Of a DNA stretch of 42,147 nt, positions 6,001-39,877 are shown in pieces. This DNA is from Bacteroidaceae bacterium (GTDB lineage Bacteria; Bacteroidota; Bacteroidia; Bacteroidales; Bacteroidaceae), in contig JAGCNZ010000109.1 of assembly GCA_017645655.1 (NCBI GenBank), forward strand, positions 1-42,147, written 5' to 3'. The notes beneath the pieces were generated by a model. The model searched no databases, was not told the origin of the DNA, and saw only the letters and a program-made list of their open reading frames with translations. Position numbers and translations under genes: made by a program. Numbering within the stretch: position 1 is the stretch's first letter; the number at the start of each line of letters is the position of its first letter.

Positions 6001-7936
6001 TCTTGATGGTAGCCTTGCCGCTGTTATTGTAACCTATAATGCCGCCGGTTGCAGCTGTTTCGTCTTTGGTTCCTACGTTATGGATTTCGCCATCGAACAG
6101 ACAATTGGTGATGTTGACGATGGCTGCTGAGTTATTGTTGACATAGCCTACAATGCCACCAATATTGCCTCCAGCTATATCCCCTTGAATGACATTGAGT
6201 ATGCCGGAATAGATGCAGTTCTCAATATTTGTTGTGCCGTTGACAGCACTGCCCACGATGCCACCAGGTCTGGGGTTGTCTGTATAGGTGACATTGAGAG
6301 TCATGTAGCTACGAATGTTGCGGATGTTGCAAGAGGTGTCGCGGGTGTAACCAACCACGCCGCCGGTCTTGTGGCCGAGCGTCATTGTGCCGTAGATGTT
6401 GAAGTTCTCGATAAGACAGCCTTCTGACACCACGCCGAAAATGCCATAATAGTTTTGCGTGGATGTAGCATTGAAGTTGTTGATGGTGTGTCCTTGTCCG
6501 TCGAAGTGTCCCTTGAAGCAAGCACTTCCGTTAGTAGTACTGCTCCAATTGCCGATGGGCACCCAAGGGTTGGTGCTGGAGATAGTCTTAGACATGTCGA
6601 TGTCGGCAGTCAGGATAGCGTTGGCGTCGAAGTTGCCTGCATTGACGTGCTTGGAGAACCACTTAAGTTGGGCAGGGTTGCTTATCTCGTAGTAGCCGTC
6701 GGCATTCAGTACCATGCTGGCTGCGATGACGTCCTCGTCGTAGTAGCCGCAATAAGAGCATACGCCGTCCACCATGTCGTGTTCGTCCTGCACAATGCCT
6801 AAATTCTCGTTGGAATATGAAATATCATCATAGAGCTCGCCGTTGCAGTGACGACGTCCGTTCAAATATACCTGGGCGTGAGTTGCGTCGAGCGTGGGTT
6901 GCTGGTCTGCGGGCAATGTCTGATACCAACCGATTTCTTTTTGGTCACCGTTCAGGTAGTAGCATATCTCGCCTGAGGGCAGTTCGTCCAAGGTGAAACT
7001 GCGTGTCGTGGGAACGCTGTTCTCGCCTGTACCTGTCTTGGCACTTCCCTCGAGCCAGCAGTTGTTGAATATCTGGGAAGGGGTGTTGTTTCTCATGCGG
7101 CCGATGATTGCGCCGCCGTAGTCGGCAGCACCTTCACCGGTGAAGGTAATGGTGCCCATGTTGAGGCAGCCCTTCACTGTGCCTTCCACATTGTTCATGT
7201 AACCTGCGATGCCGCCGCAGTAAGCGTTTGTGGTCTTGAAGGAAATCTCACCATAGTTGGCGCAATAAAGGATGCTGTCCGAGGCCATGTAGCCTACAAC
7301 GCCGCCGAAGCAGTTGTAGTTGCCTTCCACTACCGACATGGTGCCGGAGAAGGTGCAACCACGGATGTCGTTGTTGTACTGGGCAGAACCGACCACACCA
7401 CCTACGTGGCTGCAGCCTGCTTCCGTAACGGTGATGTCCAGCGAAGAGTGGACGTTGGTGATGCGGCATCCTTTTTCCGGCTCTGTGCCGATGGCATAGC
7501 CGATGGCGCCCGAGCCTTCGCCGGCTGTCACTTCGAGCGAGCCGTCGATGCTGAAGTTCTTGATGGTGGCGTCGCTTGCCGTACCAATCAGTCCGCCGCG
7601 TCCCACGCTGGTTGTCTCGAAGGCGGAGATGTTGTGTCCCTGTCCGTCGAAGATACCCGTGAAGGGGCTTTCTGCGGTGCCGATGGCAGCCTCCCAGAGC
7701 ACTTCGGCCATGTTGATGTCGGCCGTAAGCAAGGCGTTGGCATCGCCCTGACCTGGGATTTCGTTGTCCGGGTCACCGTTCACCAGCTGTGCAAACGCAA
7801 GGAGTTGGTCGGCGTTGCCAATCTCGTAGTATGTCACGCCGTCGATCACCGTGGTGGTGAGCCCTTGCGCCCATACTTGCATTCCTGCCATGCTCAGGAG
7901 AGCTGTCAGGAAGAGTGAGTAGAGTTTCTGTTTCAT
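3026..7936 (-). CDS. Giant secreted GLUG-repeat protein with sorting-signal-like tail
   Basis: This is a 1636-residue exported protein. An ATG 117 bases further upstream is open, but I chose the ATG at 7936 because MKQKLYSLFL begins a clean signal peptide, ending near VWAQ, and matches the start of the paralogue at 13911. Three blocks of GLUG-like repeats (about 26-375, 400-735 and 1259-1565) show recurring words such as GxFDGQGHxI, GGIVGY and NCxF.G. Between blocks 2 and 3 are an acidic helical segment (about 745-910), a sandwich-like domain (about 915-1095, starting TNTSFADAFNGWTV) and a second helical segment. A CSYCG linker (near 388) precedes block 2. The end (IYNLAGQRLEKLQKG... then KKVLVK) resembles a short type A sorting signal of the type IX secretion system. 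GLUG repeats occur in surface adhesins and proteases, so a surface-binding role is likely, but ligand and activity are unknown. Confidence 0.9.
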   Translation of the reverse strand: MKQKLYSLFLTALLSMAGMQVWAQGLTTTVIDGVTYYEIGNADQLLAFAQLVNGDPDNEIPGQGDANALLTADINMAEVLWEAAIGTAESPFTGIFDGQGHNISAFETTSVGRGGLIGTASDATIKNFSIDGSLEVTAGEGSGAIGYAIGTEPEKGCRITNVHSSLDITVTEAGCSHVGGVVGSAQYNNDIRGCTFSGTMSVVEGNYNCFGGVVGYMASDSILYCANYGEISFKTTNAYCGGIAGYMNNVEGTVKGCLNMGTITFTGEGAADYGGAIIGRMRNNTPSQIFNNCWLEGSAKTGTGENSVPTTRSFTLDELPSGEICYYLNGDQKEIGWYQTLPADQQPTLDATHAQVYLNGRRHCNGELYDDISYSNENLGIVQDEHDMVDGVCSYCGYYDEDVIAASMVLNADGYYEISNPAQLKWFSKHVNAGNFDANAILTADIDMSKTISSTNPWVPIGNWSSTTNGSACFKGHFDGQGHTINNFNATSTQNYYGIFGVVSEGCLIENFNIYGTMTLGHKTGGVVGYTRDTSCNIRNIRSYMTLNVTYTDNPRPGGIVGSAVNGTTNIENCIYSGILNVIQGDIAGGNIGGIVGYVNNNSAAIVNITNCLFDGEIHNVGTKDETAATGGIIGYNNSGKATIKNCLSIGTVEGYDGRNGMFIGLLNGSNTTFTNVYYAGDFVNGTESAKEAKGDEPVEVTADELASGEICWELNEETLLDAAWRQTLEVEPYPLPKSEGDYVYYFTAGYENINSDNISTLISDLSAEETEFIEDEDLIAYQALIDAYKAEIESWENYTDIDEFLEAYQAAAEIKEDILKSVAKYEAYVQACEAAAAEIEENNLSGETTDILLTYLEDNTIEAGDETYPNGSYGYIMDTRNLDNDALDAEIAFVNQMLEAAVAADGIFAGNDVSRLFTNTSFADAFNGWTVESEESVTMSSGGTTDVMPIVRGGGNGAFNVYQTASNLPNGIYMTTTNAMYRASSDAYLNFYAGQVYMNDIVNYVMTPGEDVIPEDEAEDGINCLISADYQYDDGIIFGYTPNNMNGSSYAFNAGRYKNFCATEVTDGTLTIGVRNPGNGLASQWMPFSNIHVYYLGTAEEADERLTEVLAGYAQRAQTIVEFESDYEEYATYPNMYEGLRTQLEETIEKATAIIDDDGAEEVEESKLELISIFSALFNEVYACRMAYIEMCNTANGLYDFLDALDAAGLITDADYNLWDGKIQDALAYSETGEITTEEAIAITQELKECEFALQVVDGVYQLASARDMLLFGTLVNTGQTSLNAVMTNDIDMSELEYFDPIGNSSTPYTGTFDGQGYSIKNFVYVAAGDNNGLFGCINGSARVKNFRISGSLTSDGYTYNGVIGQAEGNSVISGIYSDMSINVSNRNAHSGGIVGGMTTGSTMEIRNCEYAGTLTHTGQGDCQAGICGYTYGGGIFNCVFSGTIIGQSSKYGGILGYCKVPGFKGVQNCLCVGKIIANEGCTTAAAIIANWNGANTTAVKNNYYRFQPGSTTTIAIGNKTSSCEAPTEVTEKQLMSGEVCYKLNGSQSVINWYQNINEDSYPVPFENHEKVFYNETEDFYYNLINDVVVGIGSVKSEESKVETVMTGIYNLAGQRLEKLQKGINIVNGKKVLVK

Positions 7937-8008
7937 GTTAGTTGTGTTTAAGTTTTCGGATAAAGTTTTAATAATAGTGATAATTTGTTTTTCCTCATAA
8001 AATCGATA

Positions 8009-8016
8009 CAAAATTA
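8009..8016 (-). promoter_or_regulatory. Putative -7 box for the first GLUG gene
   Basis: The minus strand reads TAATTTTG, a TAnnTTTG match about 75 bases upstream of the ATG at 7936. The paralogue at 13911 has the identical octamer at a similar distance, which supports both calls. Confidence 0.55.
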
Positions 8017-8063
8017 AGGAAATGTACGTACGCGTGTATGCGTGCGATGGCAAAAGGACTGAT

Positions 8064-8081
8064 TTTTAACATTTCTTAACC
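8064..8081 (-). promoter_or_regulatory. Shared upstream box GGTTAAGAAATGTTAAAA (copy 1)
   Basis: This 18-base minus-strand sequence has a GTTAA direct repeat at a 10-base step. It differs by one base from the box at 14042-14059 upstream of the paralogous gene. It lies about 48 bases upstream of the -7 box, a position suited to an activator. The regulator is unknown. Confidence 0.5.
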
Positions 8082-8212
8082 CGCATAGTGCGAACATATA
8101 GGCTGTGTGTGTTAAATGAAGGAAAAAGCGGTGTAAACATTTGTAATTGGGCGAGTTCTCCGTTGCTCTGCGCGGCGATGAAGTGCGCGGCAGGGAGTGT
8201 TTCAAAATGACC

Positions 8213-8305
8213 CACGTGATAATTCAGTTTTACCCACGTGATATTTGAAATATTACACGTGATAAATTGATTTTACCCACGTGATAATTTCGTTTTACCC
8301 ACGTG
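8213..8305. repeat. CACGTG periodic array, copy A
   Basis: Five perfect CACGTG hexamers start at 8213, 8235, 8256, 8278 and 8300 (steps 22, 21, 22 and 22). Between cores the sequence is AT-rich, mostly reading GATAA then TTTTACC. The array is the main content of the 488-base gap 7937-8424, between the terminator of the second GLUG gene and the upstream region of the first. No gene is seen in the gap. Confidence 0.9.
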
Positions 8306-8334
8306 TCGATTTTCATCGCGACTGCCGCCCGCAT

Positions 8335-8372
8335 GAAAAGCCCCCTGCGGAGGGTCCGCAGAGGGCTTGTTG
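8335..8372 (-). terminator. Hairpin terminator of the second GLUG gene
   Basis: On the minus strand GCCCTCTGCGG pairs with CCGCAGGGGGC around a five-base loop, followed by TTTTC. It lies about 60 bases beyond the stop codon at 8425. Confidence 0.8.
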
Positions 8373-8424
8373 CTGGTCCGGCTATTCCAGGTGGTCTGGA
8401 ATGCCGGGAACTGTCGGGTTCGTC

Positions 8425-11400
8425 TTACTGTGCAGACATGATGTTGAGCACTTGCTGATAGTCGCCGCCATCAACCACGTTGTCGGCGTTGATATCGCAT
8501 TTCTCGTCGTAGCCGTCATCCGATATCACGTTCAGGATTTGCTGGGCGTCGCCGCCGTCCACGCTGCCGTCGTCGTTGACATCACCGAGACGTGTGTTCG
8601 TGTATGCGCCTCTGACGAAGTAAACTGTTCTGCCGCTGTCGAGCAGAGGATAGTCGTGCGTGCCCAGAGTCTGGAACCAGTTAATCTCCGTCTGGTCGCC
8701 GTTGAGCTTGAAGCAAACCTCACCGCTCTTCAGCTGCTCGTTGGTCACGCTTGTGGCTTCCTGAGGATTAGCAACCTGGCCACTTGAAGAGCCGTTGATG
8801 TAGTCGCCCTGATAGTAGCTGTTGATAATCTTCGAGTTCGTGCCGTTCAGTGCGCCGAAGAACTGAGCATACCTTGCAGATTGTACTGTGCCGATGGAGA
8901 GGCAGTTCTTGATGGTGACGAGCGAACTGTTGGTATAGCCCACCATGCCGCCGAAGGTGCAGTTGCCCGGAACGTCAACAGTATTGATGAGCTTACCGTC
9001 GAACAGGCAGTTGGTAATGTTGCAGATTGCATTTGTACTGTTGTTGGTGTAGCCTACGATACCACCATAGTTGCCACCACCGCCAGCGTCGTAACCGTCA
9101 AGAGTTCCGGAGTAGGTACATCTCTCGATGTTTATCGTTCCATTGTCTGCGCAGCCCAAGATACCGCCCGTTCTGCCGCCTTGTGGCAGGCTCGTCACGT
9201 TCACGTAGCTGTGGATGCCGCGGATGGTCACGTTGTTGTCGCGAGCATATCCTGCAACGCTGCCCTCATACTGCCATTCAGAACTTATCTCACCAGTGAG
9301 GGTGAAGTTTTCTACAATGGCATTTGTTGAGAGAACACCAAAGAGTCCGAACCAGTTCCGTCCTGCTGTGAAGTTGAAGTTGGAAATGGTGTGGCCCTGA
9401 CCATCGAAGTGACCCTTGTAGCCAATGCCGTCGGTTGCCCAGTTGCCGATAGGTGACCATTCGAAGCCTTCATTAAGCTCTGCGAAGTCGATGTCGTTCA
9501 TGAGAACAGCATTGGCAGTAAGCTCACCGCTATTGACAATCTTGCTGAAGAGAGCAAGCTCGCCGGCAGACGTCAAATGGTAAACACCGTCCACGGGAGT
9601 CGGCATGAGGCCATTGTTGTTGAGTTCCTCGATGATGGCAAGCGCTTCCTCTGTGGTAACGTCGCCCTCAGTGTAATGCGTCTGAGCGTTCAAAACCTTA
9701 TCCTCCCAAAGAGCATAATCGTCATCGGAAATGAGGCCCATGGCATCCAGCTCACCGATAATGTCGTAAAGCTTGTTGGCAGTGTTGAGCAATTCGATGT
9801 AGGTCTTGCGGCATTTAAACACTTGGTTGAAGAGGTCGGAGAAGGTGTTGATGAGCGCCATCTTGTCGCTGGTCTGCCCAACCTGAGCAATAGCTTCATT
9901 AAGCTTGACCTTCAGCTCTTCCGACATGTTCGGGTAGTGCGTGAAGTCTTCGTAGTCGTCGCTGAAGTCCACGATGACCTGTGCACGCTCCTTAAAGCCT
10001 TGGAGTACCTCTGTAATCTTAGCGTCGGCCTCTTCTGCAGTGCCCAGATAATAGACATGCAGGTTGCCGAACGGCAGCCAGTCGCTGGTGAGGCCAGTTC
10101 CCTGATTGCGTACACCAACCGTCAGCGTGCTGTCGGTCACCTCGGTAGCGCAGAAGTTCTGGTAGCGGCCAGCATTGAATGCAACAGAGCAGCCCACTCT
10201 CAGCTGTGGAACCCAACCTGCGATGTCACCCCATTCGTAGTGCGCGTCGGTGCCCTGACCAATGCAGTTCACACCTGGCTGGGCATCGTCATCTAAGACG
10301 ATATCCTCGCCTACAGACATGAAGTAGTTGTAAGTGTCGTTCATGTAGAGCTGTCCTGCATAGAACTTAGAGTAGATGTCATTGCCAGTGCGGAACAAGC
10401 CGTTGAGAGCCATCATGTAGATACCGTTAGGAATGTCCGTCAGAGTCTGGCTTGCGCTGAAGCTCTTGTTGTTGAATCCTTCAGGGATAGGCATGATTTC
10501 AGGATTGCCTTCCACGGTAGCGGTGCCGCCGTCAGCCTCGACCGTCCAACCCTCATATCCCTCAGCAAATGTGGGATTCGTCATCAGACGGGTAATCTCG
10601 GTGCCAGGCGTGAGACCGCCTGCAATAGCATTGTCAAGCATTTGACCTACGAAGGTAATCTCTGCAGCGAGAGCCTCGTCGTCCAGGTTGAGCTCGTCCA
10701 TGATGTAAGCATAGGAGCCGTTGGGATAGTCGGAGCCCGGCACGACATTCTGCTCCAGGTAAGTTCTCAGGAAGTCAGCGTATTGGCCTTCAAGTCCATT
10801 GTCGAAGAGATACTCTGCTGCTTCCGCACAAATCTGAGCGTAAGCTTCGTAGTTGGCAACAGAAGTGTTGATTTGCTCCTTCAGCTCAACTGCTTCACCA
10901 TAGGCTTGCATGAAGGCTTCGAGAGTCGTGATGTCTTCCCAAGACTCGATAGCTGCCACGTAATCATCAAGCAAAGCCTGATATGCTATAGCGTCTTCCA
11001 GGAATTCCTTCTCTTTGGTAGAGATGTCGTCAATGAACTCGGCAAGTACTTCATCACTGAGGTTCTTGTAGTCTTCCTCGCCAAACTCGTAAACGATGCC
11101 TTCGTCGCCAAATGGAACGGGATACAGTGTCTCGCCGATAGTCTGATGCCAAGCGACGTTGTAGAACTTGCCTTCGTTCAGCTTCCAAGCAATCTCGCCA
11201 CTTGCCAGTTCGTCGTCGGTGACTTCTGTTGCCATTAATGTCTCGGGCTCTGGCAGTATAGAACCATTGCCGATGCCATTAACGAGATCTCCCTGATAGA
11301 AGGAGTTGGTGATGACGGCGTCAGTACTCTTAACGATTCCATAAATCTGTCCTGCAATTTGAGATTCCACGGTGCCGATAGAGAGACTATTCGAAACAGT

Positions 11401-14059: not shown

Positions 14060-14297
14060 ATAAATATAGCATTAAACAGCATATTGCGGGTAAATGAAGA
14101 ATGGCAGAAAACAAATTCCGTGTGCATTTGCGTTGACAGCGTTCGCACTTCGGGCGAAATGTTTTCTTCAGTTTTCTGATATGTCAGAAAGTAAGCAAAG
14201 CGGAAGGATTCCTTTCAATGTGTCACTTTTCAAAGTGTCGAAAAATGGCTCGAAACGCGCCAAAATTGCCGCCGACGCTCGCCATGATTTCTGACGA

Positions 14298-14347
14298 CAC
14301 GTGGGTAGTTTGAAATTATTCCACGTGATATTTTAATTTTACCTGTG
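14298..14347. repeat. CACGTG periodic array, degenerate copy B
   Basis: Two perfect CACGTG cores start at 14298 and 14322, followed by a weak CCTGTG at 14342. Flanking bases (GTGGGTA, TTTTACC) match the other arrays, but the steps (24, 20) are irregular. It lies in the 778-base space 13912-14689. That space otherwise holds the promoter elements above, several short dyads (for example CACTTT-TC-AAAGTG at 14224-14237), three copies of GGCTAnTGA (14352, 14409, 14430) and the palindrome at 14589. I see no credible gene there. Confidence 0.6.
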
Positions 14348-24316: not shown

Positions 24317-24409
24317 CACGCGATGATTGCAAACGTCACACGTGATAAATTCATTTTACCCACGTGATATTTGAAATATTACACGTAATATTTTCATTTT
24401 ACCCACGTG
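24317..24409. repeat. CACGTG periodic array, copy C
   Basis: Cores start at 24317 (CACGCG), 24339, 24361, 24382 (CACGTA) and 24404, with steps of 22, 22, 21 and 22. It has the same polarity as copy A and fills the gap between the convergent FAS1 and membrane-protein genes. Confidence 0.9.
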
Positions 24410-24448
24410 ATGTTTTCCGACGTCGCGTACTTCGTCTTTTCTCTCCCC

Positions 24449-31325: not shown

Positions 31326-31464
31326 ACGTAGGCAGTCAAAAAACGTGGCACGTGATGTTTCGAAACGTCACGTGGGTAAATTTGAATTATCACGTGTAAT
31401 ATTTAAAATATTACGTGGGTAAAATGAATTTATCACGTGGGTAAATTTCAATTATCCCACGCGA
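31326..31464. repeat. CACGTG periodic array, copy D (reverse polarity)
   Basis: Cores start at 31350, 31370, 31392, 31413 (TACGTG) and 31435, with steps of 20, 22, 21 and 22. Weaker outer cores lie at 31326 (TACGTA) and 31459 (CACGCG). It is the reverse complement of copies A and C. It occupies most of the 320-base gap 31244-31563; the rest holds the cysE promoter and no gene. Confidence 0.9.
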
Positions 31465-31563
31465 CGTTTCCGGACGCTCTGCGATAAGTTGAGTCTTATG
31501 CTGTGCGAAAAGGCCATCACGGCACGCCATGATGACCAAAGATGGATGGTGAGCCGGCAGTCT

Positions 31564-39649: not shown

Positions 39650-39757
39650 GACGTGATGAAACATCGCGCGGGCAAACTGAAAACGTCACGTGGGTAAAAT
39701 GAAAATATTACGTGTAATATTTCAAATATCACGTGGGTAAAATGAATTTATCACGTG
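39650..39757. repeat. CACGTG periodic array, copy E (reverse polarity)
   Basis: Cores start at 39665 (CGCGCG), 39687, 39709 (TACGTG), 39730 and 39752, with steps of 22, 22, 21 and 22. A GACGTG lies at 39650. One isolated CACGTG follows at 39818. It lies in the 435-base gap 39569-40003, between the HU terminator and the leader of the histone-like gene. No gene is seen. Confidence 0.9.
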
Positions 39758-39877
39758 GGTAAATTCTTGGATGCTTCAGCACCAAGTCGCGCTTTTTGGC
39801 GCGCCGGCGCAAAACATCACGTGCCGCGTTTCCATATGCGTGCGTGCGCATTTATTATTATATAATGTGTGTGAAAA

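Follow-up and report, generated by a model that had tools for sequence, protein, structure and literature searches.

Plasmid iterons and parS/Noc-type sites are two-turn direct repeats or CACGTG-centred sites that are read by DNA-binding proteins. DNA uptake sequences are single short words that occur in coding sequence too, and BIMEs have been linked to gyrase, with a proposed role in DNA topology. In the sections available of the published reports, REP/BIME elements are described as RAYT-associated (PMC2817692, PMC6379681), and the DNA uptake sequences of the Neisseriaceae as species dialects of a short many-copy word (PMC3630211). BrickBuilt, a minisatellite MITE of Porphyromonas gingivalis, is described there as tandem 23-nt direct repeats in 19 copies, with a leader, a tail and GAGACCTT-type terminal inverted repeats like those of ISPg1/ISPg9 (PMC4596501). 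The available text on RepRanger (PMC12306157) describes nothing equal to the arrays reported here.

The window, the whole 42,147-nt stretch of a Bacteroidaceae bacterium genome analysed here, carries five arrays (Table 1), at the five places where a sequence-only reading had reported them and including the copy at 14298 that it had called decayed. The comparisons with published elements refer to those elements as the available sections describe them. Like REP/BIME elements, the arrays are intergenic, exceed 100 copies and hold palindromic cores in small composite arrays, and BIMEs bind proteins; unlike them, they come without a Y1 transposase gene and without hairpin covariation, their repeats are direct at 22 bp and not alternating, and their sequence varies by species while the geometry is kept. 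With BrickBuilt they share a Bacteroidales host and tandem direct repeats dispersed in the genome, but the units are of 22/21 bp and of other sequence, in an estimated 165 or so copies that are evenly spaced and, in the source genome, have no sharp ends. Species dialects and many copies recall DNA uptake sequences, whereas these arrays have several units in helical register and lie between genes, with 0 of 83 in the source genome inside one. Iterons and parS/Noc-type sites are similar in that they consist of direct repeats close to two helical turns in length or have a CACGTG centre; the arrays differ in being dispersed, at about 165 by estimate, and array 5 has no plasmid match. The parS site, which we take to be TGTTTCACGTGAAACA, differs from the repeated unit in the flanks of CACGTG. 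A small literature search, which says little about print overall, found no description of such arrays; the author of the sequence-only reading had known of no described element with this layout.

Table 1. Arrays, model R1 matches and the adjoining module in the window.
Feature	Positions	Strand	Details
Array 1	8207..8306	-	five CACGTG cores at 8213, 8235, 8256, 8278, 8300; steps 22, 21, 22, 22
Array 1, model R1 match	8199-8277	-	73.8 bits
Array 2, decayed	14296..14345	+	pair of CACGTG cores at a 24-bp step; also a degenerate TTTTACCTGTG
Array 3	24326..24424	-	cores at 24339, 24361, 24382 (CACGTA), 24404
Array 3, model R1 match	24321-24426	-	100.8 bits
Array 4	31345..31465	+	cores at 31349, 31369, 31391, 31412 (TACGTG), 31434; degenerate core near 31457
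Array 4, model R1 match	31347-31457	+	96.3 bits
Array 5	39650..39765	+	cores at 39687, 39709 (TACGTG), 39730, 39752; degenerate unit on the left
Array 5, model R1 match	39664-39769	+	103.8 bits
Module TCTTGGATGCTTCAGCACCAAGTCGCG...	39766..39823	+	ends in CACGTG at 39818; step from core 39752 exactly 66 bp (3 x 22)

The source genome comprises 2,738,346 bp in 130 contigs (84% complete), and a sample of 984,390 bp (36%), in contigs partly picked for having matches, was examined. The repeated unit is directional, CACGTGGGTAAAATGAATTTAT, and 22 bp long, with a single distinct central unit of 21 bp, CACGTG[T/G]AATATTTCAAATAT. In 45 core matches from 21 stretches of the source genome, conservation is high over the central ~100 bp, and towards the edges the units become fainter without leaving the register. 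The unit word CACGTGGGTAAA occurs 356 times exactly in the 2.74-Mb genome, against 0 for the reversed control; for three ACGTG at 20-23-bp spacing, the two strands together give 849 matches, overlapping ones included, against 1 for the control. The 984 kb contained 93 clusters with 201 units; given 356 units genome-wide, about 165 arrays would therefore be expected by proportion, a little below the hundreds of copies that the sequence-only reading had predicted. A sequence-only model, R1, built from 37 copies found 202 matching pieces in the genome, some arrays being split in two. That reading had also treated the CACGTG cores themselves as the repeat; the register it described is real, but what recurs is the directional unit. 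The hexamer is only mildly enriched in the window (23 versus a shuffled mean of 15.0, with at least 23 in 2 of 100 shuffles), which is too weak to serve as a signal, and the signal therefore lies in the register and the repeated unit. The word CACGTGGGTAAA is found exactly at 10 window positions spread over four arrays, and 99-nt stretches of two window arrays are 83% complementary. A separate dispersed repeat, a 30-bp inverted repeat TAACCACGAATCACACGAATT...AATTCGTGTAATTCGTGGTTA, lies at 880-968 of the window; its word AATTCGTG[TC]AATTCGTG has 15 matches (overlaps included) in the 984 kb, never adjoining arrays.

The word CACGTGGGTAAA is private to one species, with at most three matches per genome in 119 others (72 of the same genus). 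Of 138 other genomes in the genus, 24 had diverged matches to R1, and nearly all of their best loci are made up of some 3-6 units, which are spaced at 21-22 bp but differ in sequence. The pattern of three ACGTG at 20-23-bp steps was present in 86 of the 139 genomes of the genus. At least 20 matches were found in 31 of these (source genome included); the reversed control reached this number in two, G122 (21) and G011, whose 119 may reflect a family that has a different core. Of the repeat posited by the sequence-only reading, then, the architecture recurs in relatives, while the sequence is species-specific. An order-wide sample of 295 genomes yielded 33 with a three-ACGTG match and few with many (the source genome at 849, G447 225, G390 24, G385 23), the control being high in a few genomes (G212 183, G344 40, G250 23). 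The matches in G447, from another family of the same order, have CCACGTGGAGATTTGAGATTTTC-type units, several of them paired 108 bp apart. When named genomes were searched for four ACGTG at 22 bp, 68 of the 80 matches listed were Bacteroidota by title and 12 came from other phyla; the latter are probably unrelated minisatellites. Matches were obtained in Hoylesella marshii (29), Prevotella pallens (20) and Parabacteroides intestinigallinarum (24), and in few long arrays of Flavobacterium aquatile (32), all with a control of 0; these matches overlap, so the arrays are fewer. The word of the source genome was absent from a viral contig collection, where the four-ACGTG pattern fits 11 stretches, and array 5 had no match in a plasmid collection; a phage or plasmid origin was rejected on these grounds.

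In G012, a relative of which 793 kb were examined, the main family, GGTTAACC, is unrelated in sequence to that of the source genome. It forms 32 arrays, 20 with four strict units and 12 with three, and 78 of its 84 steps are 22 bp, the remaining 6 being 44. Its ends are sharper than those of the source family. Further G012 families are CTTCTC..GAGAAG and ACACGTG, and one array mixes the half-sites CTC..GAG and CAC..GTG, which is hard to fit to one strict specificity. The unit of G064 is AAGTAC-GT-GTACTT with a variable spacer, the ACGTG positions being invariant because units were picked by that word. Over 63 units, AAGT and TACTT around this ACGTG are conserved at 1.3-1.9 bits, and the spacer varies (0.4-0.9 bits, with 1.35 at one position); binding sites would be expected to show this, and copied minisatellite units would not. 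Rare families also exist in the source genome, e.g. TTGAA-N3-TCATGA-N3-TTCAA. Near-perfect 22-bp palindromes, TTGAANNNTCATGANNNTTCAA, were seen at L272:16445-16510, L273:10798-10862 and L288:1-60, in arrays that share flanking GGCAGGGT-type sequence, and another minor family, GGACTCCAGTCCCACCGTGGGA at 22 bp, at L037:18421, L044:14236 and L048:13760. On inspection, two related arrays of a minor source family suggested a 'three half-site period', but a third did not show it and the idea was dropped.

CACGTG-core steps of up to 120 bp in the 984 kb were predominantly 22 (207), 21 (62) and 20 bp (7); longer steps were 43 (29), 44 (13), 65/66 (11) and 87/88 bp (2), with 12 at other values. Modules inserted in place of units kept the register. 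The step across the TGGATGC...GTGCGC module was 66 bp in all 5 copies, including that in Table 1, and the step across the main pattern of a C-rich module inside arrays was 44 or 88 bp in all 6, although the copies of either module are not independent events; two variant C-rich modules gave steps of 41 and 51 bp. The C-rich module GACCCCCTAACCCCCTTTAGGGGGAATT lies within arrays at L034:3090-3200 and L280:1-100 with exact 44-bp steps, and its word was also found at three places outside arrays. In 764 kb of the source genome, Tandem Repeats Finder reported 175 arrays with a 22-bp period and 103 with a 21-bp period (12 and 11 after block shuffling), and in 400 kb of G012 the numbers were 66 and 29 (4 and 11); many further periods were raised too, mostly ordinary coding or AT-rich repeats. 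As in an operator array, the sites of both genomes lie on one helical face with the register kept. Outside CACGTG, the unit of the source genome has no symmetry (p = 0.72). Symmetry at p < 0.05 was found in 3 of 26 ACGTG-type units, 5 of 10 of the other type and 0 of 4 controls, the tested units having been hand-picked, some for looking palindromic. A full-unit palindrome, strong in some families and absent in the source family, was rejected as a universal rule.

Arrays occur about once per 7-10 kb and are spaced more evenly than by chance. Compared with a null of random choice among gaps of at least 100 bp, the CV of the spacing in the source genome was 0.59 (0 of 400 random sets) or, in a second run, 0.61 (p ≤ 0.001) versus 0.87, and in G012 it was 0.65 versus 0.93 (p ≤ 0.001). 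Inter-array gaps below 2.5 kb made up 6% versus 23% in the source genome and 4% versus 16% in G012. When the null was restricted to gaps of at least 200 bp, the CV was still significant (0.021 in the source genome, 0.001 in G012), and the short-gap test in G012 was not (0.098). Short gaps separated 1 of 68 same-family and 5 of 28 cross-family neighbours in the source genome, where the latter do not avoid one another and 'other' includes simple repeats, and 2 of 39 and 1 of 30 in G012, where different families keep apart. Array-free stretches above 18 kb numbered two in 984 kb of the source genome (one bounded by the sample edge) and three in 793 kb of G012. One low-GC array-free stretch, L274:7467-17513, carries caspase-like peptidase, WD40-like and CHASE2 genes and is possibly a conflict system; at about 190.5-238 kb of G012 C18 (L307-L309), a prophage without arrays lies next to an EPSP synthase gene. 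An autonomous element between close arrays was rejected, the intervening genes of the closest pairs being ordinary or spurious by eye.

We propose, tentatively and short of calling it probable, that the arrays are multi-site platforms for a lineage-specific, chromosome-organising, probably dimeric DNA-binding protein. Each array would be a landing platform for several molecules of this sequence-specific protein, and sites 22 (or 21) bp apart would place neighbouring molecules on one face of the helix, where they could bind co-operatively. With about one platform per 7-10 kb, intergenic and in any gene orientation, the chromosome would be organised or insulated and not single operons switched, the platforms perhaps acting as bridging points or topological boundaries. 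In the course of the genus's evolution, the sequence that is recognised would have been replaced repeatedly, as a change of 'dialect' that may follow change in the protein, whereas the geometry was kept, and with it many of the positions.

A different account, possible although we lean away from it, is that the arrays are miniature mobile (MITE-like) elements, each lineage having its own 80-130-bp family that is copied into intergenic safe sites and kept apart by target immunity or purifying selection. The exact family of the source genome is private to one species. Its members are homologous and derive from one element, whose central unit is fixed and whose edges fade, so they must have been dispersed by some process. 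This dispersal, the coexistence of several unrelated families within one genome, and the inverted-repeat frame ATCTACTGCC...GGCAGTAGAT that surrounds some G012 units all fit mobile arrays. However, Y1_Tnp/RAYT (PF01797), the only transposase family searched for, had 0 matches in the source genome (G000, 84% complete), with controls positive in 5 of 14 genomes, and a RAYT-driven REP was rejected on this result.

Comparison of positions between species also weighs against mobility. The parts of the source genome and G012 examined contain 95 syntenic neighbour pairs, with a median identity of 75% between reciprocal best matches. At a score threshold of 26, gaps of 66-1000 bp held an array in both genomes (6), the source genome only (5), G012 only (2) or neither (17). 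G012 thus had an array at 6 of 11 gaps with one in the source genome and lacked it at 5, versus an array at 2 of the other 19 (p = 0.015; 0.015 to 0.049 over thresholds 25 to 28); the sample is small, and intergenic length is a possible confounder. Different families occupy the same orthologous sites: behind one gene, a CACGTG array in the source genome stands opposite a GGTTAACC array in G012 (o81 7447-10366). Avoidance between families in G012 likewise speaks against mobile copies. In one orthologous gap, a GGACTCCAGTCCCACCGTGGGA array in the source genome was seen to correspond to a GGTTAACC array in G012. Six array loci of G064 had a match in the examined parts of the source genome, with a source-type array facing the same gene end at three and none at three, one of the latter being a 56% match and perhaps a paralogue. 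These three loci, like the five gaps at which G012 lacks an array, count against the proposed platforms.

In the closer pair G012 and G024 (95% identity), each of the 8 listed syntenic array sites has an array of the same family at the same position in both, although some of the units have changed. In 80 kb of G024 there are 11 arrays, 10 of which aligned to G012; the one without an aligned counterpart counts in favour of mobility. Across the ten aligned arrays, identity was 160/164 in cores, defined by the motif in G024, 708/796 in the rest of the array and 2952/3563 in flanking intergenic sequence (core versus flank, p = 4e-9); with the eleventh, non-orthologue-aligned array included, the values were 171/188 versus 2989/3661 (p = 4e-4). 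In this pair, the one compared, the cores are constrained relative to the flanks, contrary to what mobile copies would lead one to expect. Core constraint, strict register, even spacing and sites shared across dialects together fit chromosome-organising arrays of binding sites. Both accounts may hold at once, the arrays being mobile in origin and kept by use. The sequence-only reading had argued from the two-turn step that all cores face one side of the DNA and suit a co-operative dimeric protein. Its argument is partly supported: the step is kept in unrelated families and across modules, and core conservation in one species pair and the lack of paired changes (below) agree with binding to DNA; the asymmetry of the source unit beyond CACGTG does not, and the protein is one that we infer.

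Marks of self-recognition, like DNA uptake sequences or Chi-like words with species dialects, would account for the species-specific sequence and the even spacing, and the longest array-free stretch, 60 kb of G012, contains a prophage (integrase-like, portal, capsid and tape measure genes). We regard this explanation as improbable. Such marks would be single words, whereas the arrays are multi-unit, and with plain ORF calls as gene models (ORFs below 400 bp overlapping an array discarded beforehand) 0 of 83 source arrays lay inside genes. In G012, 1 of 11 ACACGTGA-like arrays and 0 of 19 GGTTAACC arrays were scored inside an ORF.

Bidirectional terminators or RNA-stabilising hairpins are, in our judgement, a poor candidate as well. 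The median distance to a gene's 3' end is short (69 bp in the source genome, 30 bp in G012), several arrays of relatives lie closely behind a stop codon or a terminator-like stem, and many G012 arrays are A-rich at the start and T-rich at the end, as this reading would have it. But of the 78 source arrays with both neighbours in view, 19 lie between divergent genes, 25 between convergent and 34 between tandem ones; among 129 gaps of at least 120 bp that have no array, the corresponding numbers are 27, 25 and 77. Since all three contexts occur, the arrays cannot all be terminators or all be promoter elements, and both readings were rejected. Compensatory changes were found at 0 of 18 predicted pairs of the consensus fold of the source family, most pairs being invariant and so little informative; the double variant GCTTAAGC was seen in 0 of 116 G012 cores, in which both single variants occur 20 times and 3.4 double variants would be expected if the changes were independent. 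An RNA structure was rejected, as the window has no Rfam match at gathering scores and paired changes support neither an RNA nor a cruciform fold. Neutral minisatellites spread by slippage and conversion, to which adjacent units that are sometimes near-identical inside an array might point, are very improbable against the narrow range of unit number, strict register and diversified units in G012, the conserved inverted repeat with variable spacer in G064, and the even spacing and core constraint.

Intergenic repeat families are usually explained as mobile-element debris or operon signals. In the present arrays, what persists between species whose compared proteins have a median identity of 75% is the geometry, the spacing and some of the positions, and not the sequence. 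Because geometry persists without sequence, it can be asked whether bacteria have chromosome-wide systems of sites under turnover, and what reads them. A further question is whether topological domains, which are about 10 kb in size, have sequence-marked boundaries. It is conceivable, if on balance unlikely, that the Bacteroidales have a system in which evenly spaced two-turn arrays hold their place while their sequence is swapped between species along with a fast-evolving protein, a proposed bacterial counterpart of satellite/centromere or PRDM9-like turnover. Since arrays are present in named species (Hoylesella marshii, Prevotella pallens), the question is testable.
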